IMG/VR virus record: IMGVR_UViG_3300012944_000073
Span: 1-20,208 of that record
DNA from: a virus
Strand: one strand, 5' to 3'
Length of the DNA: 20,208 nucleotides
This document shows positions 4,670-20,118 of this stretch, piece after piece (the stretch's first letter is position 1; each line of letters begins with the position of its first letter). The notes beneath the pieces were generated by a model. The model had not been told where the DNA came from. It made no database searches and saw only the letters and a list, made by a program, of their open reading frames with translations. A program made the position numbers and the translations under genes.

Positions 4670-5845
4670 TCACACCTTCATGTAATCGACGGCGATGATG
4701 CCGCCAATGTTCCACTGCGCGTCTGCCGGCGCTTCCTGCGCGAGCACGCCGATGGTGGTCTTGCCATGCATCTTGTAGATGTACAACGGCGTCCCGCGCT
4801 TCGTCATACCGATGCGCTTGATGCCTCGCTTTAAAGAGCGGTCCGAGAAGTACATCGCTGCCAGCGCGGTCGTGCCGTTGATGGCGTTTTGCTGCTGCGC
4901 GTTGCCGCTGTTGATGCCGGCGTTGTACTGATCCATCGCGGCGTTGTACTGCTGCCCGGTCGCGCCCATGATGTTCGGGGCCGTGCCGGCGCCTGCGGTC
5001 TGGAACTGCGGGAAGTTGGGATTGCCGACTTGCTGGCCCGAGAGCAGCGCGTTGAGTTCGTTCAGCGGTTGTGAGCGGCGGGTCTGCTGCTCCGCGATCG
5101 ACTGCTGCCGATTTTGATTCTGGAAGTTCGAGCCTTGCAACGCCTGATTCCAGGCCTGCGATTGCGCCGCGTTGCCAAACTGACCTGAAGCGAGATCCAT
5201 CTGCTGCATCCGCTGGCCTTCCGCTGCAGCGGTCGAATCGGCGGTGGCGCGCGCGCCCGCGTAGGCGTCGGTGCGCTCATTGCCGAGTTCGGTCTGCGCC
5301 CGGTTCCAGGCTTCGCTGCCGCGCGTGAGCCCGCGCCCGAGCAGGGCAGCGTCGGTGCTTTCTTGCTTATGGGCGAACTGGGGGTCCAGACGGCTCGTAG
5401 CGCGGTTGTAGACGGCGTCCCCGGCCTTCGAGGCATAGGCGCCGCTGCCGCCTACCTGGGTGTTCAGCGGTCCGCCCTGAGGCGTTGTAGCCTGCGCAGG
5501 AAGATTATCCCAGTTCGCCGGCTCGTTCATCGAGCCCTGCACCCGGCCAAGGAACGACGACGCCTGATCGCTCAAGCCCGTCTGCACTTTCATCTGCGAA
5601 TCGAGCGCGCTCTGCTGCTGCGGATTCAGCGAAACGTTCTGCTGCCAGCGCGTGACCGGCTGACCGGTAGAGGGATCGGTAGTCGAAGAGGCGCCCCAAG
5701 ACTGCGAGCCCCACGGCGTGTTAACGTCAGGACGGTTCGCCCAGGTTTGCTGCTGCGTGAGTTGGTTCTGCTGCGTGGCCTGCTGGTTTGCGAGGCCGGC
5801 GTAGTCAGGAACCGGAGGCGGCGGAGGAGCGGATTTCCCACCCAT
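4670..5845 (-). CDS. Gln-rich virion protein with C-terminal S74-type chaperone-like domain (391 aa)
   Basis: Two in-frame ATGs occur, at 5851 and 5845. AGGGG abuts the first but is well spaced from the second, so the start MGGKSAPPPPPVPDYAG at 5845 is preferred. After the proline run the protein is Gln/Asn-rich with helical repeats and low complexity to about residue 325. The last ~60 residues contain YFSDRSLKRGIKRIG, then TPLYIYKMHGKTTIGVLAQE and a terminal VDYMKV. This matches the general pattern of the S74/endosialidase intramolecular chaperone (SDxxLKxxIxxIG...LYxYxY...GVxAQE). A Ser and a Lys five residues apart match the self-cleavage pair of that family. Such domains normally trimerise fibres and are cleaved off. 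Here it sits on a non-fibrous protein. The frame overlaps the GNAT-like gene by 41 bases. Confidence 0.75.
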   Translation of the reverse strand: MGGKSAPPPPPVPDYAGLANQQATQQNQLTQQQTWANRPDVNTPWGSQSWGASSTTDPSTGQPVTRWQQNVSLNPQQQSALDSQMKVQTGLSDQASSFLGRVQGSMNEPANWDNLPAQATTPQGGPLNTQVGGSGAYASKAGDAVYNRATSRLDPQFAHKQESTDAALLGRGLTRGSEAWNRAQTELGNERTDAYAGARATADSTAAAEGQRMQQMDLASGQFGNAAQSQAWNQALQGSNFQNQNRQQSIAEQQTRRSQPLNELNALLSGQQVGNPNFPQFQTAGAGTAPNIMGATGQQYNAAMDQYNAGINSGNAQQQNAINGTTALAAMYFSDRSLKRGIKRIGMTKRGTPLYIYKMHGKTTIGVLAQEAPADAQWNIGGIIAVDYMKV

Positions 5846-6257
5846 GGACATCCCCTAGAAAACGGCACTGAGACCGCGTCATGGTCAAAATCTGGAGAGC
5901 GCCATCGGGGTGTCCATCGGGGATGGTGGCACACAGCCTGAAGCCCAGCTTATAATCGAGTCGCAGAGCGGCGTCGTTGGTGCTGACTACCTTCGCTACG
6001 ATCACCTTCGCTTTGCATACCCTGAACGGGTAGTCAAAAGCGGCCTTCAAAACCTTCCGGGTGATCCAATGACCACCGTAGCCTGCGACGTGCATTTCGA
6101 TCGCGGACCCATTAAAGTTATCATATCCTATGACGGCGCGCAAGACCCCCATTTTATCGACCACCCCCAGACAGCGCAGGTGCGGCGACGGCACGAGGTT
6201 GATCTCGCGGCATAGCCACGTCGCAAGCGAGTCCTGAGGGCCGTTGACGAGTCTCAC
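5805..6257 (-). CDS. GNAT-like N-acetyltransferase family protein (150 aa)
   Basis: The GTG start overlaps the TGA of the tail hub gene (GTGA), so it is translated by coupling. The fold call rests on the pattern AKVIVAKVVSTNDAALRLDY followed by KLGF (residues 83-106). This corresponds to the GNAT beta4-loop-helix-beta5 region, with its N..A.RL..KLGF signature, and is preceded by an alternating hydrophobic strand around IEMHVAGY. The usual acetyl-CoA loop (Q/R-x-x-G-x-G/A) is not clearly present; GGHWITRKV occupies about that position. Related GNAT-like genes occur beside tail genes of other podoviruses, substrate unknown. The last 41 bases overlap the next gene, and the C-terminal ~20 residues look unstructured. 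It could be an active modifier of a virion or host component, or a degenerate structural version. Confidence 0.65.
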   Translation of the reverse strand: MRLVNGPQDSLATWLCREINLVPSPHLRCLGVVDKMGVLRAVIGYDNFNGSAIEMHVAGYGGHWITRKVLKAAFDYPFRVCKAKVIVAKVVSTNDAALRLDYKLGFRLCATIPDGHPDGALQILTMTRSQCRFLGDVHGWEIRSSAASGS

Positions 6258-10439: not shown

Positions 10440-11426
10440 TTACGGACGCGTGTCTTTGACGCGACCCTGGTAACGCCCGCCGTTCATCGCGAGGTTGCCG
10501 GCCCAGGCGAGGATTTGAACCTCGGCGTCCTGATTGACGGCGTAGCGCTTGTTCGGGTTCAGCGGCACCATGTTGCGCTTCGAGTGCGGGCGCAGGAAGA
10601 TGTACTTGGTGTTGAGCAGAAACGCCGTCTTCGCCGGGCAGAACCCGCCGATGCCGCCGTCCAGCACCACGTCCGCGTCCATGAACTTGATGGACGGGAA
10701 ACCAAAGCTGGCCGTCTTCGGCTCCGTGAAGCGCTGCAGGGTCTGCAGTTCACGGACATAGTTCTGCCACATCACGTTGTCCATCAGGATCAGATCCGGG
10801 CGCTCCGTGCCGAGCACCAACCCCGACCACGCGGTATTCAGCGTCGCCTGGACCGGACCCGGATTCGTCACTGCGGTGTTCGTCAGGACATCGTTGATCG
10901 TCGAGCGCCAGAAGGTGAACGCTGCGCGATCGATGCCGCCGTACGTGCCGGTCGTCGGATCGAGCGGAACCGCGGCGTTGAGGCCGGTCAGTTCCTTGCC
11001 GCCCGTGCCGGTGCCATCGGCGTAAACGCCCGCGCCCAGCCGGTTCTGCATCGTTGCTTCCGCAACGCCGATGCGACCTTCCATCAGATCGATGAATGCC
11101 TCGGGACCGCTATTCTGCAGGTCTTCCAGACCGGACATGATGACCGGGCAGGCGAGTTGCTTGATGGTGAATTCGGCCGCGCTGATGACGTCCTGCGCCG
11201 CGATCGGCAGCAAGTCGTATCCGCTGTACCAGCCGGCGTTGCCGTTCTCAGCGAACGACAGTTCTTGGACGATGACGTTGCCGCCACCGAAGGATTTGAC
11301 GTTGCCGCGCTCGGAGAGCTTGGCATAGGCCGCGTTGGCCTTTTTCACGTTGTCGGCGATCTTCTTCGACCGGTTTTGAATCGTGGTCGCGATGATGTCC
11401 GAGTAGTTCGCGTTTGCGAAGGTCAC
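10440..11426 (-). CDS. Major capsid protein, HK97-fold type (328 aa)
   Basis: The protein starts with GTG at 11426, preceded by GGGAG. Recognisable capsid segments in order are TFANANYSDIIATTIQNRSK, LSERGNVKSFGGGNVIVQEL, WYSGYDLLPIAAQDVISAAE, IMSGLEDLQNSGPEAFIDLM (with EGRIGVAEATMQNRL following), GVYADGTGTGGKELTGL, then PDLILMDNVMW and a C-terminal LNTKYIFLRPHSKRNMVPL. This set matches a widespread podovirus major capsid family. The stretch from the AEF..KQ helix to the EATM region corresponds to the long spine helix and P-domain, and the N-terminal Asn/Lys-rich helix to the N-arm. At 328 residues it is of usual size and needs no delta domain, since a scaffold gene precedes it. It has its own structured leader and a terminator after it, which fits high, separately set expression. 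Confidence 0.9.
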   Translation of the reverse strand: MTFANANYSDIIATTIQNRSKKIADNVKKANAAYAKLSERGNVKSFGGGNVIVQELSFAENGNAGWYSGYDLLPIAAQDVISAAEFTIKQLACPVIMSGLEDLQNSGPEAFIDLMEGRIGVAEATMQNRLGAGVYADGTGTGGKELTGLNAAVPLDPTTGTYGGIDRAAFTFWRSTINDVLTNTAVTNPGPVQATLNTAWSGLVLGTERPDLILMDNVMWQNYVRELQTLQRFTEPKTASFGFPSIKFMDADVVLDGGIGGFCPAKTAFLLNTKYIFLRPHSKRNMVPLNPNKRYAVNQDAEVQILAWAGNLAMNGGRYQGRVKDTRP

Positions 11427-11597: not shown

Positions 11598-12815
11598 TTA
11601 ATGCTGATGCTGGCTGATCGCTGCCATCAGGTCCCCGCGAAGGGAGCCATCAGATGCTTCGATCGAAGAACCACCGCCCGGTGAGCCGGTTAGCGAGCCA
11701 GATGCGGCCTTGGCCTTCTGCGCTGCTGCGTGCTGCTGCTGGGCGATTTGGGACTTCTGCCTTGACAGTGTAACCCCTTTTACGTCAGGATGCAAGAGGC
11801 ATGCCGCCTGATAGGCCTCCTGGAAGCCCATGTCGCGGCCTTCCTTGAGTTCCATCTCGATCAGATTCGCCATCAAGCCCCTGACTTCATTGAAGAATTC
11901 GTTCTTGGGGTCCGCGGCGAAAGTCTCCATCTCGTTGTTCGTTTCGCCCTGCAGCCGGGTGAAATTCTGGTTCCGCTGCTGCTCCACCTGCTGCATCATC
12001 TGCTGGAACGGAGCCACCTGCTGCGCGACCATTTGCTGGATGAGCGCCGGATCGACGCCACCCTGCTGGCCTTGCTGCGTCGGCTGCACCTGCCCGCTGA
12101 CGATCTGATCGAGCAGATCGATCGAGACCGCGTGCTGGTTGATGAGGTGCGCAATGAAACCGGCCTTGTCCTGCGCCGTGCCGCCGCGCAGAATCGACGC
12201 AGCCTGCAGCATGCCATGGATGAATTCAAACGGGTTCGCTCCGGTGCTTTGGATCATCGGCAGGAACGGATTGACAACTTGCGTCATCGTCTCCGTGAAT
12301 TGGCGCGCGCCCGCGGTCTTCTGCAGCACTTCGTTCACTTGCTGCTCGCGCCGGATGAAGGCCTCTTGGACCGCCTTCGGCGTCGTCGCCCAGTGCTCGC
12401 GCTCGCCAGCGTTCAGCGATTGCGGCGCACGCAGCACCGACGCGTTCTTCGCCGCCTGCGCAGCGTCCGCAGCGGCCTTGACTGCCGCCGGATCAAGGGC
12501 AGGTGTCTTGCCATCCGGCCCAGCCTTCGGCGCCGCGGCAGGAACCACAGGCGCGGCCTCGGCCTTCTCCGCAGCCTTCGCGAAGCGGCCTTGCGCGTCC
12601 CTGGTGCGGCCGTCGCCGCTCGGGTGTGCCTCGCCAGGGGCGCCGACTTCCGGCGTCTCTACGGCGGCTTCCTTGGGCTCCGGGAGGCCTTTCGACAGAT
12701 CCGGGATTTCTGCTACAACGGCCGGTGTCGATTCGGCAACAGGTTTCGCCTCGTTGGTGGATGCGGCGCTGGTCTCGATAGCGGCGGCAAGATCAGCGCG
12801 AAGATCGTCAGACAT
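11598..12815 (-). CDS. Scaffolding-type head assembly protein (405 aa)
   Basis: It lies immediately upstream of the major capsid gene and has the composition of a scaffold. The N-terminal ~130 residues are Ala/Pro/Glu-rich and probably disordered, including a DGRTRDAQGRFAKAAEKAE segment. Helices then follow (AVQEAFIRREQQVNEVLQKT), and a Gln-rich central part (about 245-300) looks like a coiled coil. The C-terminus is a disordered Gly/Ser linker followed by SLRGDLMAAISQHQH. Phage scaffolds commonly use a short C-terminal helix to bind the capsid. The N-terminus (DLRADLAAAI, residues 4-13) repeats this motif almost exactly. AAGGAG precedes the ATG at 12815. No Ser/His protease motif was recognised, so a protease-scaffold fusion is unlikely. 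Confidence 0.75.
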   Translation of the reverse strand: MSDDLRADLAAAIETSAASTNEAKPVAESTPAVVAEIPDLSKGLPEPKEAAVETPEVGAPGEAHPSGDGRTRDAQGRFAKAAEKAEAAPVVPAAAPKAGPDGKTPALDPAAVKAAADAAQAAKNASVLRAPQSLNAGEREHWATTPKAVQEAFIRREQQVNEVLQKTAGARQFTETMTQVVNPFLPMIQSTGANPFEFIHGMLQAASILRGGTAQDKAGFIAHLINQHAVSIDLLDQIVSGQVQPTQQGQQGGVDPALIQQMVAQQVAPFQQMMQQVEQQRNQNFTRLQGETNNEMETFAADPKNEFFNEVRGLMANLIEMELKEGRDMGFQEAYQAACLLHPDVKGVTLSRQKSQIAQQQHAAAQKAKAASGSLTGSPGGGSSIEASDGSLRGDLMAAISQHQH

Positions 12816-12827
12816 GTAGACTCCTTT

Positions 12828-13001
12828 TTACGGGTGGGTCGGTTTATAGGATCGCAGCGAATTGACTCGTGTTCCGGCCTTCGCTCTGCGTTGCGTGTTC
12901 AGCGCGATGGCAATTGCTTGCTTCTGGGGCTTACCGGCGCCCATCTCGGTTTCGATGTTCTCCGAGACTGCGGCTTTGCTTCCTGATTTATTCAGCGGCA
13001 T
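12828..13001 (-). CDS. 57-residue phage protein, DUF6496-like motif
   Basis: The ATG at 13001 has a perfect AGGAGG (13007-13012) five bases upstream, inside the 3' end of the 800-residue gene, and overlaps that gene by 14 bases. The sequence begins MPLNKSGSKAAVSENIETEM and continues GAGKPQKQAIAIALNTQRRA. This gives the pattern KSGSKxAVxxNIxxE...GKPxKQAIAIAL, which recurs in small phage proteins and at the ends of larger ones, and which I associate with DUF6496. The C-terminal ~18 residues are basic (KAGTRVNSLRSYK). TAA at 12828 is followed closely by the scaffold's Shine-Dalgarno. Role unknown; the basic tail and the conserved GKPxKQA helix suggest nucleic acid or protein binding. Confidence 0.8.
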   Translation of the reverse strand: MPLNKSGSKAAVSENIETEMGAGKPQKQAIAIALNTQRRAKAGTRVNSLRSYKPTHP

Positions 13002-15390
13002 TGTTGCCTCCTGTGATTGCTGCTGCCGCGGCAGCGATAGCCGCCGCGAGTTTTGGATCGATGTGACCGGCGTGTGCCTTGCCGGCGATGACGAGATCGC
13101 GAGCGGTCTCGGGTGATACCTTGAGGCGCTGTGCGGTCTTCTCGATCTGTTGCGCCAGCAGTTCGAGTTTTGGTGCTCCGATCGGTGATGTGATGCCGGT
13201 TGCGTGCGAGCCCGCGCCCCACGCGACGGCCTGCGCCGGCACGGATTCGAGCCCGCTGGCCTTGGCGACTTGCTCCTGCCACCACGGGGTCAGCGTCGTC
13301 ATCTCCGGTACGCTCGCGCTCGCGCCACGGGCCTCAGGCCGCATCGTGCGCGTCTCTGGCAGGCCTATGAGGCGTGACCAGTGAGCGTCGCCCACGGGCC
13401 ATTGCGTCTGGAAGCCGGTCTCAGGCACGCCGCTGGCGGCGATGTAGCTCGGAACCTTCGCGCTGCCCATCTCCACGTTGCCGGTGTTCTGGAACTTCGC
13501 CATCGGCACCGCCTGCGCGGTACTGTGATACGGATGACCGATCACCGCCTTCAGATCCTTCGGGAAGTTGCGGCCACGCTCATGCTCCGCCTGTCCGCCG
13601 TATTTCATGAAGTCCTCGAACTTGCCTTTGTCGGCCATCATCCGCGCCGCGGTGCCGCGATTGAGTTCGGTCAGCACCTCGCTGCCGGGCGATGCCATGC
13701 CGGTGAACGTGTTGAAGCGCTTGTACTGGTTGATGGCCTCCTCAGGTCCATACATCTTCACAAACTGGTCGTAGAGCGGGTCCATCGTGTACCACGACGC
13801 CATACCTTTAAAGAGATCCGGCCGCTCGCGTGCCGCGCCGATGATGTCCTGCATCCGGGCCGCATTCTCGGGCGTCGCCACCTCTTGCGCGGCGGCTGAC
13901 CCGCGCGCGTTCGCTGCGGCCTTGTACGGGCGCTCCGCGATGTTTCCTTGGCGCGTGCCGCCCTTCGAGATGTCGAACAGATCCTGCCGATCGACGCCGA
14001 AGAGCCGCCTCATGATGGCATCCTCGGGCGCGACGTTCGCGTTGGCGACAAGCTCGCGCGGATTGGAATGGATGCCGGGATACGGCGCCTCGGAGACTGG
14101 TCCGCCACGCAACGCGGTCGCGCGAGCAAAGCCTGGATTGGCCTCGCTGCTGCCACTGCCCGGAGCGAACGGGTCCTCATCGCTGAAATTCAAGGCGCCG
14201 CGTTGCTTGCGCCCCTGGCCGCGAGTGATATCCACCGGACGCTGCTCGCGGTTTGTGCGACCGAAAATCATCTCGTCGGGCAGGAGCCCGGTTTTCTGTT
14301 CTGCGTAGACGGTGCCGGTCGGGCTCGCGGTTTTATTCGCTTCGCCGTGCGGGCCGAAATTCACCCACGAGTTCTGGCCGCGGGTCTCACTCGCCATCGC
14401 GCGCGCCGCCTCGGGCGAGTACATCCCCATGTGCTGCTGGAACGCGTTCTCTTCGCCCCGAGCGCGGAACCCGACGCCTTGTTTGCTGTGGCCGAAGGCA
14501 TCATGCACCGCACGGAATAGATCATTGTGCGTGACCGGCTTGCCGCCCCATGTCTCACCTGATTGGCCCAGCAGCGGATTATTCGTGATCTCACCACTGC
14601 CGAAGCCTGATTCGGTGGGGAAGACATACATATGCTTGTTCTCTTGCAGATCCTTCACCGCGTTGCGCGGGTTGCCGTACGGATCACCCGACGCCGGCAT
14701 GAATTCGAAGTTGTAGCCAGCCCCCTTTAAAGCGTTGTATTGCGCGCCGGTCTCATCGATCATCGCCTTGTACGCCGCCGCGACCTTCGGGTCATTCGGC
14801 GCATGCGCCATATGCTCGTACGCGTCCGCGACGGTCTTCGCGAAGCCGGGATCGACGTTGACGAATTCCTGCTGCGGCCGATTCTGCCGGCCGGTGCTCG
14901 CCATGTAGTCGTTCGCCACCTGCTGCAACGGCGCGTGCGGGCCAGTGACATCCGCGGTCGCGCCCTTCAGATTTCCCTCGAACGGCTTCTCGATGCTTGG
15001 GCGTGTCTGGAACTTGCCTGGGCCTTTGGCCTTTGCACCCTTCGGCCCGATCATGTTGAGCCCGGTCACCGCGGCGGCGCCCGCCAGCGGGCCACCGTAC
15101 TCGGCGGCGATGTCGCCGGCAGGCTCGATCACGTGCTTATTCAACGCTTCGAACGGAACGTTGATGTTCTCGATCGTGCGCGTATCCTCGGGCGTGTAGC
15201 CGAGCTTCTCCTGCAGCGCCTTGATGCGCGCTGTGGCCTTCGCGTGACCCTCGCCAGCCAGCAGCGAGCCGATACCGGTGACGCCACCGATCGCGGACGC
15301 GCCCATGTTCTGCGCGATGGCGCGAGCGGCCTTGCCGCCTTCACGGATGCCGCCGTAGATCGCTTGGTCTAGGTTCTCGATCGTATCCAT
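12988..15390 (-). CDS. Large multidomain phage protein with HDxFGH motif, possible virion-delivered enzyme (800 aa)
   Basis: Translation is coupled to the upstream gene (TAATG overlap). Residues 1-115 contain Gly/Ala-rich helices (AIAQNMGASAIGGVTGIGSL; AAEYGGPLAGAAAVTG) resembling membrane-active segments. Residues 150-380 form a compact domain: MYVFPTESGFGSGEITNNPL, then LFRAVHDAFGHSKQGVGFRA, RGEENAFQQHMGMYSPEAAR and ASETRGQNSWVNFGPHGEAN. I recall very similar stretches in other phage and plasmid proteins of unknown function. His296, His301 and Glu335 resemble a 2-His-1-carboxylate metal site in spacing. Residues ~380-500 look like a linker. Residues ~500-735 form another block (RFNTFTGMASPGSEVLTELN, WPVGDAHWSRLIGLPETR, WQEQVAK...VPAQAVAWGA). 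A Leu/Ala-rich helical tail ends in GGNNAAE. The slot between portal and scaffold is often used by phages for proteins carried in the capsid. Enzymatic function is inference. Confidence 0.8.
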   Translation of the reverse strand: MDTIENLDQAIYGGIREGGKAARAIAQNMGASAIGGVTGIGSLLAGEGHAKATARIKALQEKLGYTPEDTRTIENINVPFEALNKHVIEPAGDIAAEYGGPLAGAAAVTGLNMIGPKGAKAKGPGKFQTRPSIEKPFEGNLKGATADVTGPHAPLQQVANDYMASTGRQNRPQQEFVNVDPGFAKTVADAYEHMAHAPNDPKVAAAYKAMIDETGAQYNALKGAGYNFEFMPASGDPYGNPRNAVKDLQENKHMYVFPTESGFGSGEITNNPLLGQSGETWGGKPVTHNDLFRAVHDAFGHSKQGVGFRARGEENAFQQHMGMYSPEAARAMASETRGQNSWVNFGPHGEANKTASPTGTVYAEQKTGLLPDEMIFGRTNREQRPVDITRGQGRKQRGALNFSDEDPFAPGSGSSEANPGFARATALRGGPVSEAPYPGIHSNPRELVANANVAPEDAIMRRLFGVDRQDLFDISKGGTRQGNIAERPYKAAANARGSAAAQEVATPENAARMQDIIGAARERPDLFKGMASWYTMDPLYDQFVKMYGPEEAINQYKRFNTFTGMASPGSEVLTELNRGTAARMMADKGKFEDFMKYGGQAEHERGRNFPKDLKAVIGHPYHSTAQAVPMAKFQNTGNVEMGSAKVPSYIAASGVPETGFQTQWPVGDAHWSRLIGLPETRTMRPEARGASASVPEMTTLTPWWQEQVAKASGLESVPAQAVAWGAGSHATGITSPIGAPKLELLAQQIEKTAQRLKVSPETARDLVIAGKAHAGHIDPKLAAAIAAAAAAITGGNNAAE
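13007..13012 (-). promoter_or_regulatory. Consensus Shine-Dalgarno AGGAGG
   Basis: A full AGGAGG lies five bases before the ATG at 13001. It is the strongest ribosome-binding site in this part of the operon and is decisive for calling the 57-residue gene real. It is embedded in the last codons of the 800-residue gene. Confidence 0.75.
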
Positions 15391-15884
15391 TACGCCACCG
15401 GGTACGGCACCTGATCGCTAGGGCCGCCCGCATAGCTCGGGCCGCTGCCGAAGTTGACGGTCTGACCGCTCTTCAGTTGTTGCGCGCTAGTCGGTTTGCG
15501 CAGCGCCTGCGCTCGAAGCTGCGCCGACAGATTGCCGGCAGGATTCGCCGCGCCCGGCGTGCTCTGTAGCGCGCGCATCTGTGGCGGCGGAGCAGCAGGC
15601 GTAGCCGCGCCAGGACCGCCTAGGATGTGCAGGATCGCAGCGCCAGGGTCTTGCAGCCAGCCGCTGGTGTGCGTGTGCAGGTAGCGGCTCACAGGGTCCC
15701 TGGCGACCGTATCCATGATGTTGTAGCCCAGCGTGTTCGAGCCCGCGGGACCGCCAGGGCGCGAGGCCTGACCCGAGCCGAAGCCGTATAGCTGGCCGGT
15801 GCCTTGACCCGAGATGCCGAAGCCGGGCGAGACACCGCCGAATGAATTTCCCGTGTACGGGCCTTGAAAAGGATCGAACGACAT
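15390..15884 (-). CDS. Gly/Pro-rich phage protein of unknown function (164 aa)
   Basis: The open frame extends to 16004, but the ATG at 15884 (MSFDPFQGPYTGNSFGG) is preceded by CGGAG and overlaps the TGA of the upstream gene (TGATG), so it is taken as the start. The N-terminal 60 residues are Gly/Ser/Phe-rich and low-complexity. A short central segment (YNIMDTVARDPVSRYLHTHT, then SGWLQDPGAAILHILGGPG) is the only part that looks ordered. The C-terminus is Ala/Gln/Pro-rich. It directly precedes and is coupled to the 800-residue gene, so it may be a partner or packaging adaptor for that protein. I do not recognise a family. Confidence 0.7.
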   Translation of the reverse strand: MSFDPFQGPYTGNSFGGVSPGFGISGQGTGQLYGFGSGQASRPGGPAGSNTLGYNIMDTVARDPVSRYLHTHTSGWLQDPGAAILHILGGPGAATPAAPPPQMRALQSTPGAANPAGNLSAQLRAQALRKPTSAQQLKSGQTVNFGSGPSYAGGPSDQVPYPVA

Positions 15885-16225
15885 CACTTTCTCCGGTTGC
15901 GCTCCATCACCTCGTAAACAGCGCGCCCGACATCGTCGCGGCGTGCCTTGTGGTCGCCACCCGTGGTGTGTACGTCTGCTCGTTCTTTTGCTTGCTGCGC
16001 CCATTGATTCTTGTAGTCGTCAGCAGTCGTGAGCCCGGTGCGCCGCATGTACTCGCGGTGCTTCGTGCGTGTGTCGATCGGCACGCCATCGGTCGTGCGC
16101 AGACCGTCGTAGTGCCGATCACCCCAGAGCGCGCCAGCGCCAAGCTGCGATGTCGGCTCGGTAGGCAGCACGTCAACGCCGCGCTCGTACGCGACGCCGT
16201 CAATGTAAACGAAGGTGCGCTTCAT
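15884..16225 (-). CDS. Conserved small phage protein (113 aa)
   Basis: It begins MKRTFVYIDGVAYERG and contains YDGLRTTDGVPIDTRTKHRE followed by YMRRTGLTTADDYKNQW, then a basic helix ending VYEVMERNRRK. The order xRTFVYxDG, then a GxxIDxRxKHREYMRxxGLTTxDDYK segment, is one I associate with small proteins in the portal-to-scaffold interval of podoviruses, function undefined. Charged and helical, no membrane segment. The ATG overlaps the upstream stop by four bases, and its own TGA overlaps the next ATG. A DNA- or head-vertex-binding role is possible from its basic C-terminus, but not shown. Confidence 0.75.
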   Translation of the reverse strand: MKRTFVYIDGVAYERGVDVLPTEPTSQLGAGALWGDRHYDGLRTTDGVPIDTRTKHREYMRRTGLTTADDYKNQWAQQAKERADVHTTGGDHKARRDDVGRAVYEVMERNRRK

Positions 16226-16464: not shown

Positions 16465-16670
16465 CAGCGAGTCATCGCGTCGATGGCGTCACGCTGCTGC
16501 GCGGGACGTTGCTGCAACTGGTCGGCCGCATTACGGGCAGCACCCTGGCCTACCATGGCCGGCTGCGGCTGCCCTTGCTGCACGAGCCCGCGAAGGGCCT
16601 TCACGCGCGCGATGATTGACTGCATCGTCGAGGGCGCTTGCTGTTGCGGGACTTGCGGTTGTTGGTCCAT
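16464..16670 (-). CDS. Small Gln-rich phage protein (68 aa)
   Basis: GGAG stands eight bases before the ATG at 16670; a GTG three bases earlier is also in frame, so either could initiate. The protein is MDQQPQVPQQQAPSTMQSII, then a helix ARVKALRGLVQQGQPQPAMV and a Gln/Arg-rich tail. Both ends overlap neighbours (TGATG at the portal stop and at its own stop), which supports real translation. Low complexity prevents a family assignment. It could be a small internal head protein. Confidence 0.65.
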   Translation of the reverse strand: MDQQPQVPQQQAPSTMQSIIARVKALRGLVQQGQPQPAMVGQGAARNAADQLQQRPAQQRDAIDAMTR

Positions 16671-18730
16671 CACTTTGCTCCTGGGTGACCGCCGACGGGT
16701 GCCGGCTGTGGAAGTTTGTCGAGGATCTGTAGCACCGGGTTCTGCAGGTTCTGCGTCTCCACGGAGGTCTTCTGCGCGGTCGCCATGTTCTTGGCGGTCT
16801 CGCTCTTGATCTTGTCATCCTGCGGCGTCGGTTGCTTCGGCTGCGATGCGCCTTGTTGCAGGGCCTGCAAGCACTGATCGAGTACTCCCTCGATCTCCTT
16901 GCTCACTTTAAAGCCACCCATCGCCCACTGGAACAACTGGAACAGGAACGGCGCGGCGGCGGGTGCTTGCATCGCGAGCGGGCCCATCTTCTCGATGAAG
17001 GCACCGACCGCTTCGAGGAACTGAGACCGGGCCTCACGCTCTTTCGCCCAGTCCAGAGCGGCGATCGTGTCGGGATCGACACTGATCTTCCACTTCAGCA
17101 TTTCCGCGTTCTTAATGAGATCCGCGGCCTGCTGCGCCAACGCCTTGTCCGGTGTGGACATGATGTTGGATTCGTTGATGATCGTCTGCGCGTCGTAATG
17201 TTTCGAGATGATCTCGGCCTTGATGCGCTGGCCGCGTGCGATCCACATCGCGATGTCGCTTTGCTTCGACTGGATACGCGATGAGCCGAATTGCGCCTTC
17301 AGTTCCTGCGCACCCAGCGTCTCGTTGGGATCGCTCGCGCCGCGCATGATGTCGCTGATGCCCAGCACCTCGTACACATGCTGCTGCGCCGCCTGTAGCT
17401 CGACCCGTAGCTGTGAAATCACCTCGGCGATCTCCTGGATCGGCAGGAACGTCACTTGCCCCTGGATGCCGCCCTTCTCCGCGAACATGGCCCAGTTGTC
17501 CACGCCCACGAGCGAGAGTTCGCCTTGCTTGTAGATGTTCTTGATCTCGACGCTGTTCTTGTCGTACAGACCCGCGACCTTGCAGGCCTTCACGAGCCAC
17601 GACAGGCGCGTCTGGATCTCGTTGATCTGCTTGAACAGATCCACGGCCATCATGTAGTCGCTCTTCGGCATGAAGCGCGACGTGGTCGTGTTGGTCGTCA
17701 GCGGCTCGGGACATGGGAAGAAGCCTTCAAGACCCAGCATGTCTTCCTGGAACTTCAGGATCTCGTTCTGCCCGAAGGCGAACCAATAGACGCGCTTGGT
17801 GTCCTTGCACCATATCTCCCACAACTCGGCCTTCTCGAACGCCTGCGCCTGATTGTCGATGTCGGCGCCGACGCCCTCTTCGCCCTGGCGCCCGGCTTGC
17901 TTGCGATACGACAGCAACTCGGCCTTCGCGGCGCCATAGAGCTTGGTCGCCTGCGCCTTCGATTTAAAGACACGCTTCGCGACCCAGCGATTCTCTTCCC
18001 AGGTGCGACATGGTGACCAGATGAAATCACGCCAGTAGACGTAGTCGGTTGGCGAGTCCTCGGACAGCTTGACATCGAATGTGCCGCCTTGATCGATCAC
18101 CTGTGGCTGCGGCGCCGGCATCGGTGCGCCCGTGGCGGGGTCCACAGCGGGCAGGCCAGTCATCGGATCAGTCTGCGGCGGCGGCGGTGTCGGGCCGTAG
18201 GTCGGCTCGATCGTTTGCTTACCAATCTCAGAGTCATAGCGGTACCAGACTTGGCCCAGGCCCACCGTGAGATAGTCCGTGATGCCATGACGCGCGCTCG
18301 CGTCGAAGTCGCTGCCGTCCTTCTCGATGCCACAGTTCAGGATGCGCTCCAGCATGATCGAGGCTACACGAGCCACGTCGTCTTCGCTGTCGCGGTGCGT
18401 CCGCGTGACATCGACCTTCGGGACGCGCGCATAGAGCGACGCCTTCTGCACCTCGTACGTGGACCAGAACAGGTTGATGTGATTGCGCATGCCTTCGTCG
18501 ATGCCGCGCTTGTCGATCAACGCGCGGATAACTTCGACGCTCTTCGCATCGAAATCCTTCCGCTCTTTCTTGCCGGCCTCCATCTCGCGCTGCCAGAACT
18601 GCTGTATCCCAAGCGGATTGTTCTGGAACGGCGCGTACGGGTTGCTGACATCGCCAGGAGCGCCGGGCTTCTGTGCGGTGTCGGCCTTCGCCGGCTGGTC
18701 CTGCGGTGCTGCTGCGGTATCGTAGCTCAT
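16670..18730 (-). CDS. Portal protein (686 aa)
   Basis: The ATG at 18730 (MSYDTAAAPQ) overlaps the terminase stop (ATGA) and has AGGCGG upstream; a longer frame to 18757 would invade the terminase gene more deeply and is less likely. After a disordered N-terminus, residues ~45-135 contain REMEAGKKERKDFDAKSVEV and NLFWSTYEVQKASLYARVPK, followed by a helix with DSEDDVARVASIMLERILNC. This arrangement is typical of large podovirus portals. Next come DYVYWRDFIWSPCRTWEENR and a ...DLFKQINEIQTRLSWLVKAC... helix matching the portal stem region, then ELQAAQQHVYEVLGISDIMR with GASDPNETLGAQELKAQFGS (crown/wing side). It ends in a Gln-rich C-terminal helix. Twelve copies should form the DNA entry ring and dock the terminase encoded just upstream. 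Family name is inferred from pattern, not alignment. Confidence 0.88.
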   Translation of the reverse strand: MSYDTAAAPQDQPAKADTAQKPGAPGDVSNPYAPFQNNPLGIQQFWQREMEAGKKERKDFDAKSVEVIRALIDKRGIDEGMRNHINLFWSTYEVQKASLYARVPKVDVTRTHRDSEDDVARVASIMLERILNCGIEKDGSDFDASARHGITDYLTVGLGQVWYRYDSEIGKQTIEPTYGPTPPPPQTDPMTGLPAVDPATGAPMPAPQPQVIDQGGTFDVKLSEDSPTDYVYWRDFIWSPCRTWEENRWVAKRVFKSKAQATKLYGAAKAELLSYRKQAGRQGEEGVGADIDNQAQAFEKAELWEIWCKDTKRVYWFAFGQNEILKFQEDMLGLEGFFPCPEPLTTNTTTSRFMPKSDYMMAVDLFKQINEIQTRLSWLVKACKVAGLYDKNSVEIKNIYKQGELSLVGVDNWAMFAEKGGIQGQVTFLPIQEIAEVISQLRVELQAAQQHVYEVLGISDIMRGASDPNETLGAQELKAQFGSSRIQSKQSDIAMWIARGQRIKAEIISKHYDAQTIINESNIMSTPDKALAQQAADLIKNAEMLKWKISVDPDTIAALDWAKEREARSQFLEAVGAFIEKMGPLAMQAPAAAPFLFQLFQWAMGGFKVSKEIEGVLDQCLQALQQGASQPKQPTPQDDKIKSETAKNMATAQKTSVETQNLQNPVLQILDKLPQPAPVGGHPGAK

Positions 18731-20118
18731 TGCATTCCGCCTGGAGCGGTCTCCCAAAGATCATCCAAGGTGTAGACCTTGTTGTGTGTTACCGGCGGCG
18801 CAACCGGTGGCGGCGGAGGCGGCGGCTGTATCGCGCGCGGGTTCATAACGATCGCGCCGTACGAGTAGCCATCTCCACCGTGCGAGGCCCAGTTGTGATC
18901 CGGGTTCGCGCCAAACTGCCGAGTCTCCTCGTTATATTTGAACTGCCACGCGCGCAGGGCCTTGAGCCCCAACTCACACGCGGTCCGGTGGAAGATCGTG
19001 CGACGCGCGACCTTCCGTGCTGCTGAAATCCTGTCTGCTACACTGAGCATCGGGACGATCTCGACCCGATATCCTGCTGCTTTAAAGCGCTCCTGCGCGC
19101 TGGTCTTCGTCGCGAAGGTCTTCGCCCTCGCGTCGTGCGGCAGCCACAGCATCGAGACCTTGTCGGGCGACCAGCCGCTCTTGTCGAAGTGCTCGATCCA
19201 GTCCTCTGCGTCTCTGCCGCTGCCCTCGTCGTAGCCGCATGCGGCGAACCACGCATTCGGAAGCCGCTGCCACGCCCAGAACGCGGCCGTGTCGTGGAAC
19301 CCGATGTCAGCCGACAACTCGATCTGGCCGTCGGTGACGAAGTCGTAGATCCTGTTGTCTCTATCCGCCTGCTCGATCCACTTGCCGAGGATCGCGCCCA
19401 CGTTCGCGGCGCTGAAGTCGCAGTAGTACTCTTGCCTGACCAACTCTTCCGGCATCCCGTCGCGGATCTCCTGCGCCACCTTCTCTGGCGTCATCCGCCC
19501 GCCGCGGGTCATCGTGTAGTTGATGTCCATCATGCCGTAGTACCACCGGCCGCTGAACTGTTCGAGCTTGGCTACCTCACCGAGCGCGTGGAAATCGTTG
19601 TAGCCTCGCGGTGTACTGATGAAGGCCGCAGTACCGTTGTTTTCCGTCAGGATCGGCCTCACTAAATGCCAGCCCCTCGGATGCGAGAGCGCGTACTCGC
19701 TGAAGGTTGCGTGTACGGGTGACGCACCCACATTGGAATCGAAGTTGTCGGCGCCCAATAATTGCACGATCGAGCCGTTGTGCAGCGTGAGCTTCATCTC
19801 CAGTTCGTTCTTCTTGCGGATCATCTCGCGCGGGAACGTCGTGTCGATCAGGTTCTTGCCTTCCGGCGTAATGTTGTCCCAGACCGCCTTGCGCGCTTGC
19901 TTGAGCGAAGGCAGCAGGTGCCAGTACGTCCCGATGCGCGTCTGCGACATCTTGCAGGCCTGCACGAGCATCGTGCGGTCCTTGCCGCCCCGCCGATGCA
20001 TGCACCACCACGCGCGCCCAGGGATGGCCTTCTCCAGGCACTTGTCGAAGAAACCCATGATCGGGAGTTGATACTCCCGAGGCACAAAGCGCGTGCCGGG
20101 GTAGTCGAATTCCCGCAT
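18727..20118 (-). CDS. terL: Terminase large subunit, ATPase and nuclease (463 aa)
   Basis: The N-terminal ATPase has YPGTRFVPREYQLPIMGFF, a Walker A-type loop HRRGGKD (residues 41-47), a Walker B-like strand HATFSEYAL with Glu141 as the probable catalytic acid, and the coupling motif STPRG (168-172). The C-terminal RNase H-like nuclease shows acidic residues in the right order: Asp271 in LSADIGFHDTAAFWAWQ, Asp329 in WLPHDARAKTF, and Asp407/Asp416 in PDHNWASHGGDGYSYGA. The protein cuts and pumps concatemeric DNA into the prohead through the portal. Length is usual. The C-terminus carries a run of seven prolines and then YTLDDLWETAPGGMQ, probably a flexible portal-binding tail. The ATG shares a base with the stop of the upstream gene (TGATG), and the stop overlaps the portal start. 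Confidence 0.93.
   Translation of the reverse strand: MREFDYPGTRFVPREYQLPIMGFFDKCLEKAIPGRAWWCMHRRGGKDRTMLVQACKMSQTRIGTYWHLLPSLKQARKAVWDNITPEGKNLIDTTFPREMIRKKNELEMKLTLHNGSIVQLLGADNFDSNVGASPVHATFSEYALSHPRGWHLVRPILTENNGTAAFISTPRGYNDFHALGEVAKLEQFSGRWYYGMMDINYTMTRGGRMTPEKVAQEIRDGMPEELVRQEYYCDFSAANVGAILGKWIEQADRDNRIYDFVTDGQIELSADIGFHDTAAFWAWQRLPNAWFAACGYDEGSGRDAEDWIEHFDKSGWSPDKVSMLWLPHDARAKTFATKTSAQERFKAAGYRVEIVPMLSVADRISAARKVARRTIFHRTACELGLKALRAWQFKYNEETRQFGANPDHNWASHGGDGYSYGAIVMNPRAIQPPPPPPPVAPPVTHNKVYTLDDLWETAPGGMQ

Follow-up and report, generated by a model that had tools for sequence, protein, structure and literature searches.

An 800-residue protein encoded among the head genes of this virus (translation ...THNDLFRAVHDAFGHSKQGVGFRARGEENAFQQHMGMYSPEAARAMASETRGQNSWVNFGP...) raises the question of what a phage does with a polypeptide whose sequence resembles the metal site of an enzyme. 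The window, i.e. the whole stretch of DNA analysed here (20,208 bases), is the whole virus record of this gene. The earlier note had singled out histidine and glutamate residues of this protein as possible metal ligands, and the series VH296DAFGH301 ... GE313 ... H320 ... SE335TRGQ is present exactly as described, LFRAVH296DAFGH301 being followed by GEENAFQQH320 and then by ASE335TRGQNS. The features of the protein and of its HDxFGH domain are as follows:

12988-15390, minus strand: 800-residue protein carrying the HDxFGH domain (open reading frame and translation)
14215-14950, minus strand: HDxFGH domain, residues about 147-392 (~240 residues), the span conserved in phages, plasmids and bacteria
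14677-14679, minus strand: codon of the invariant Y238 (identical in 104/104 members)
14485-14529, minus strand: helix 288-302 with N289, D290, R293, H296, D297, G300 and H301 (VHDAFGH), by DSSP of the model
14503-14505, minus strand: H296 codon
14500-14502, minus strand: D297 codon
14488-14490, minus strand: H301 codon
14428-14463, minus strand: helix 310-321 with G312, E313 and H320, by DSSP of the model
14452-14454, minus strand: E313 codon
14431-14433, minus strand: H320 codon
14356-14415, minus strand: helix 326-345 with E335, Q339 and W342 (SETRGQNSW), by DSSP of the model
14386-14388, minus strand: E335 codon
14293-14295, minus strand: codon of the invariant K366 (identical in 104/104 members)
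13063-14175, minus strand: C-terminal module, residues ~406-776, like the ends of polyvalent ORFs

The genes around it are:

16670-18757, minus strand: portal protein (phrog_12082, E 8.8e-142), upstream of the domain gene
11598-12815, minus strand: 405-residue scaffold-like protein, the next gene downstream, its putative role taken from its place between the domain gene and the major capsid gene
10440-11426, minus strand: major capsid protein (phrog_9953 major head protein, E 1.1e-103)

The placement between portal and scaffold, also pointed out earlier, recurs in the closest relatives (L001, L002 and L091), which keep the order of domain gene, scaffold-like gene and major capsid gene. In these three the domain forms a gene of its own (304-318 amino acids) between the portal and capsid genes. 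Because it stands alone at the same place, the HDxFGH domain is an independent unit, and the region matched in relatives stops near residue 392. The window protein has one further conserved module beside it. This C-terminal module shares 41-52% identity with the C-terminal ends of polyvalent ORFs at three loci (L003, L011 and L074) and has no Pfam match; a relation to DUF7178 was unsupported by profile comparison (1%). A function-unassigned protein of 113 residues (15884-16225, minus strand) is likewise encoded ahead of the domain gene, at a conserved position, in the three closest relatives (54-56% identity). Elsewhere in the window, a virion structural protein (4670-5851, minus strand; phrog_6121) has an end (SDRSLKRGIKRI...) weakly like an S74-type chaperone domain (E 0.17), and a 150-residue protein (5805-6257, minus strand) looks by eye like a GNAT acetyltransferase and has no Pfam match. 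PADLOC defence-system models gave no match, and neither Rfam families nor tRNAs were found.

The HDxFGH domain represents a family of its own, which is widespread and has an invariant residue set, HD-x-F-x-H / GE-x6-H / E-x3-Q. For residues ~134-372, tblastn found relatives on four actinobacterial plasmids and in 200 phage records; identity is 50% for those from cyanophages and uncultured phages, and ~32% for those from Rhodococcus phage E3 and Bxz1-like mycobacteriophages. The search of IMG/VR returned 310 related stretches and that of the GTDB contig collection 129, and 80 of each were kept. The near-identical stretches in other phage and plasmid proteins that the earlier note mentions were found among the tblastn and IMG/VR relatives. 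A distant-query scan with a plasmid protein yielded no viral relatives. Actinobacterial members of the plasmid type (L083 5239-6591; L135, L138, L141 and similar) are 450-585 amino acids long, have an extra N-terminal region without a Pfam match and read HDAFAH or HDAIAH at the motif. The domain has no Pfam or NCBIfam model, its sole name being PHROG 3170, a phage protein family of unknown function. This profile matches residues 185-345 of the window protein (E 1.3e-15) and all 18 of the 18 large ORFs scanned, whereas the HDxFGH family extends further, to proteins encoded on plasmids and bacterial chromosomes.

In many podovirus-like contigs the domain gene lies beside the terminase (TerL) and portal genes. 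In other phages the domain is found inside ORFs of 1,400-4,000 residues with the domains of polyvalent proteins. Pfam scans of 18 such ORFs revealed DUF7178 (7/18), LPD22 (5/18), LPD38 and GNAT (3/18 each), ART, GGDEF and RadC (2/18 each), and InPase, LPD23 and PBECR5 (1/18 each). The large ORFs thus carry several unrelated effector domains per polypeptide, and the HDxFGH domain is a module of phage polyvalent proteins (Iyer et al. 2017, PMC5512222), beside LPD22, LPD38, ART-PolyVal, InPase, PBECR5 and RadC. None of the LPD models in Pfam matches it. For polyvalent proteins, entry into the host together with the DNA has been proposed (PMC5512222). Since the domain is encoded beside portal and terminase genes or inside polyvalent proteins, it is reasonable to suppose from its gene context that the window protein is carried in the capsid and delivered in the same way; the literature search returned no virion proteomics for a phage with this domain. 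DUF7178 and the HDxFGH domain may work together, because they occur jointly in 7 of the 18 polyvalent ORFs and are adjacent or fused elsewhere: a Bxz1-like mycobacteriophage encodes a DUF7178-like protein directly before the domain (L081, 3879-5681 and 5674-6975), and in Rhodococcus phage E3 a DUF7178-like part is fused after it (L082, 5677-8253).

To judge from the aligned sequences, conservation of the motif is far beyond chance. It was scored over 104 diverse relatives (alignment A3): Y238, N289, D290, R293, H296, D297, H301, G312, E313, H320, Q339 and K366 are identical in every member and E335 in 103. The proposed ligands H296, H301 and E335 are therefore kept in homologues as the earlier note would have it. 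Six of the 104 members have Ala or Cys in place of G300, indicating that a Gly ahead of the second His is dispensable. Part of the invariance is by construction, because the GTDB relatives were retrieved with patterns containing NDxFR[AVI]VHD or ETRGQNS. The patterns used for the viral set (IMG/VR) were free of HDxFGH, E313 and E335, and the tblastn and HMM relatives were not selected by motif. In the viral set, the tblastn records and three profile-found Streptomyces members, the residues hold wherever aligned or printed, except for one E335K. H320 had been regarded as an alternative ligand. Its conservation was borne out (104/104), but the description is too modest, since neither H320 nor E313 varies any more than H296 and H301 do. 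The site is thus richer than a plain set of two His and one Glu, and the motif observation is stronger than the earlier note knew.

AlphaFold with A3 gave confident models for the window domain (pLDDT 90.8, pTM 0.88) and for a Streptomyces homologue (pLDDT 94.5, pTM 0.91). Both models show the same order of elements, namely helices, a few strands and then three consecutive helices that bear H296/D297/H301, E313/H320 and E335/Q339, respectively. On each helix there is a weak tendency for the conserved residues to lie on a single face (p 0.03-0.05). Foldseek against the PDB found no fold with E below 1 for either model, and no solved metalloenzyme was matched by fold or by sequence; 21 predicted phage proteins matched, and re-scoring of Foldseek's own PDB list with VIA-align gave no match. 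Structure prediction had been suggested as a check, and it placed H296, H301 and E335 on helices of a confident model, whereas the expected hydroxylase fold did not appear. A missing PDB match is not proof of a new fold.

Stand-alone genes of the family in bacteria code for ~220-310 amino acids, fall mainly into two clades and are separated from the phage clades on the tree (97/91). The first clade occurs in Streptomyces, Nocardia, Micromonospora, Saccharothrix, Paraburkholderia and others. Here a SufS-like desulfurase gene follows or lies nearby at 25 loci, methyltransferase and cystathionine lyase/synthase genes at 23 each, a homocysteine S-methyltransferase gene at 19, an adenosine deaminase gene at 11 and the gene of a genuine S-adenosylhomocysteine hydrolase, SahH, at 6; several of these loci come from close species and are not independent events. 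One gene set (L132, 2677-11002) comprises SahH, an MFS transporter, the HDxFGH protein, a SufS-like protein, a methyltransferase, a cystathionine lyase and a homocysteine methyltransferase, and this type of set is kept, although not with every member, from actinobacteria to Paraburkholderia. It looks like an undescribed biosynthetic pathway; searches of the literature on the gene set, DUF3293 or the motif found nothing relevant and no described pathway. The second clade occurs in Aquimarina, Chryseobacterium, Aureispira, Enterovibrio, Ruegeria and Actinophytocola. A SahH-like gene is present in 11 of its 11 loci, usually with a DUF3293 gene, and in Actinophytocola a single 814-residue ORF (L116, 4807-7251) is a triple fusion of SahH-like protein, HDxFGH domain and DUF3293; at another locus (L124) the domain is fused to DUF3293. 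The three Streptomyces members found by profile search also have a homocysteine methyltransferase gene alongside. The family is rare, with a match in 4 of 247 Streptomyces genomes and 3 of 398 Pseudomonadota genomes (query genome counted in each), one of the latter being a short fragment without the motif. Taken together, the gene neighbourhoods suggest that the substrate is a small molecule bearing sulphur or an adenosyl group.

Our preferred reading, held tentatively on sequence and models, is that residues ~147-392 form a non-haem metal enzyme, probably of iron, which acts on a sulphur- or adenosyl-containing small molecule and is delivered early in infection. Of the earlier proposal, the metal-dependent enzyme is favoured by conservation and predicted structure, and the kinship with hydroxylases is not. 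The ligands of a divalent metal, most probably iron, would be H296, H301 and E335; H320 and E313 would lie in its second shell or bind a second metal, and the substrate would be positioned by D297, R293, Q339, K366 and Y238. The reaction would be one on a sulphur- or adenosyl-containing metabolite, as the stand-alone bacterial relatives belong to gene sets of S-adenosylhomocysteine metabolism and transsulfuration and occur in fusions with SahH-like proteins. In phages the domain would be an effector that is associated with the virion and acts early in infection. Its substrate there may be a different one, given that phage and bacterial members form separate clades.

Less probable, though the first of the alternatives, is a di-metal hydrolase, lyase or oxygenase in which H296, D297, H301, E313, H320 and E335 bind two metal ions. 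Six potential ligands, invariant or nearly so on the three consecutive helices, are more than one metal needs. Against it, Foldseek gave no match beyond noise to HD-domain, ferritin-like or haem-oxygenase-like di-iron folds.

H-[DE]-x-x-G-H with a downstream Glu is the metal ligand set of two unrelated families, the pterin-dependent aromatic amino acid hydroxylases (AAAH) and the M49 peptidases. Since only the motif is shared with the HDxFGH domain, the likeness is an argument from analogy for a metal bound through two His and one Glu, and not one for membership in either family. E313 and H320, invariant here, have no counterpart in AAAH or M49.

In HExxGH peptidases the Glu is the catalytic base. 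The HDxFGH family always has His-Asp and never His-Glu, which disfavours a peptidase, whereas AAAHs tolerate Asp at this position. We therefore consider a zincin-like metallopeptidase rather unlikely; its HDxxGH motif would be a stretched one, comparable to M49 or to the HEXXXH peptidases found in polyvalent proteins, and its targets could be proteins of the phage itself or of the host. M49 (dipeptidyl peptidase III, PF03571) has the same His spacing and a similar downstream E-x-R-x-D/Q stretch (its relatives read HEVIGH...EEARAD), but the alignment spans 16 columns around the motif, and the residue after the first His is Glu in 11 of 11 M49 sequences and Asp in 104 of 104 members here. The hhalign probability of 1-2% is near that of negative controls (0.2-1.3%). 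MATCAP/DUF1704 (PF08014) gave a weak Pfam match (E 0.12) and has the HEXXXH spacing, but the match falls outside the motif and hhalign returned 0.1-0.2%, so that membership in M49 and MATCAP is unsupported. The succession of strands, motif helix and Glu helix recalls the zincin order of polyvalent-protein peptidases, among which an HEXXXH clade has been reported (PMC5512222), whereas no zincin of the PDB was matched by Foldseek and the bacterial gene context is small-molecule metabolism.

A virion structural or assembly protein, its residues kept for the fold or for zinc binding rather than catalysis, is still less credible. The gene does lie in the head module, and the homologue gp205 of Rhodococcus phage E3 is annotated 'structural protein', but stand-alone chromosomal homologues occur in metabolic gene sets without phage genes, and the invariant set is polar, as is typical of enzymes.

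The hydroxylases resemble the domain in H-[DE]-x-[FL]-G-H, with a spacing of five between the two His and a Glu about 35-40 residues further on; the window protein has HDAFGH at residues 296-301, and fetched bacterial phenylalanine hydroxylases (PheH) read HDLFGH or HDVFGH. The AAAH set, from which L176 (a member of the HDxFGH family) was left out, gave the top hhalign score among the families tried, 15-30% probability over nine aligned residues. Four PheH entries appeared in the Foldseek run with the window model, at E 6.5-9 and TM-scores of about 0.15. That the domain is a true divergent AAAH, the kinship proposed in the earlier note, is most improbable and was rejected after Pfam, profile and fold tests: the Pfam search gave no PF00351 match and the PDB sequence search no AAAH, no more than those nine residues align, no PheH entry appeared with the Streptomyces model, no similar PDB fold was found and AAAH landmarks such as YGAGxxSSxGE are absent.

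Returning to the preferred reading of a non-haem metal enzyme, a bolder version of it is a long shot: the family might be a new enzyme superfamily whose fold the PDB does not yet contain, and it would serve an undescribed S-adenosylhomocysteine-linked pathway in bacteria and be delivered by phages to upset S-adenosyl metabolism, thereby blunting methylation-dependent defence. Hundreds of phages, and bacterial gene sets around S-adenosylhomocysteine, share a predicted metalloenzyme that is nameless, has no Pfam or NCBIfam model and gave no solved relative in these searches; the HDxFGH domain deserves a name. The bacterial gene sets and natural fusions offer a concrete route to its substrate, and the substrate would show how a common module acts in the large, presumably injected proteins of phages.
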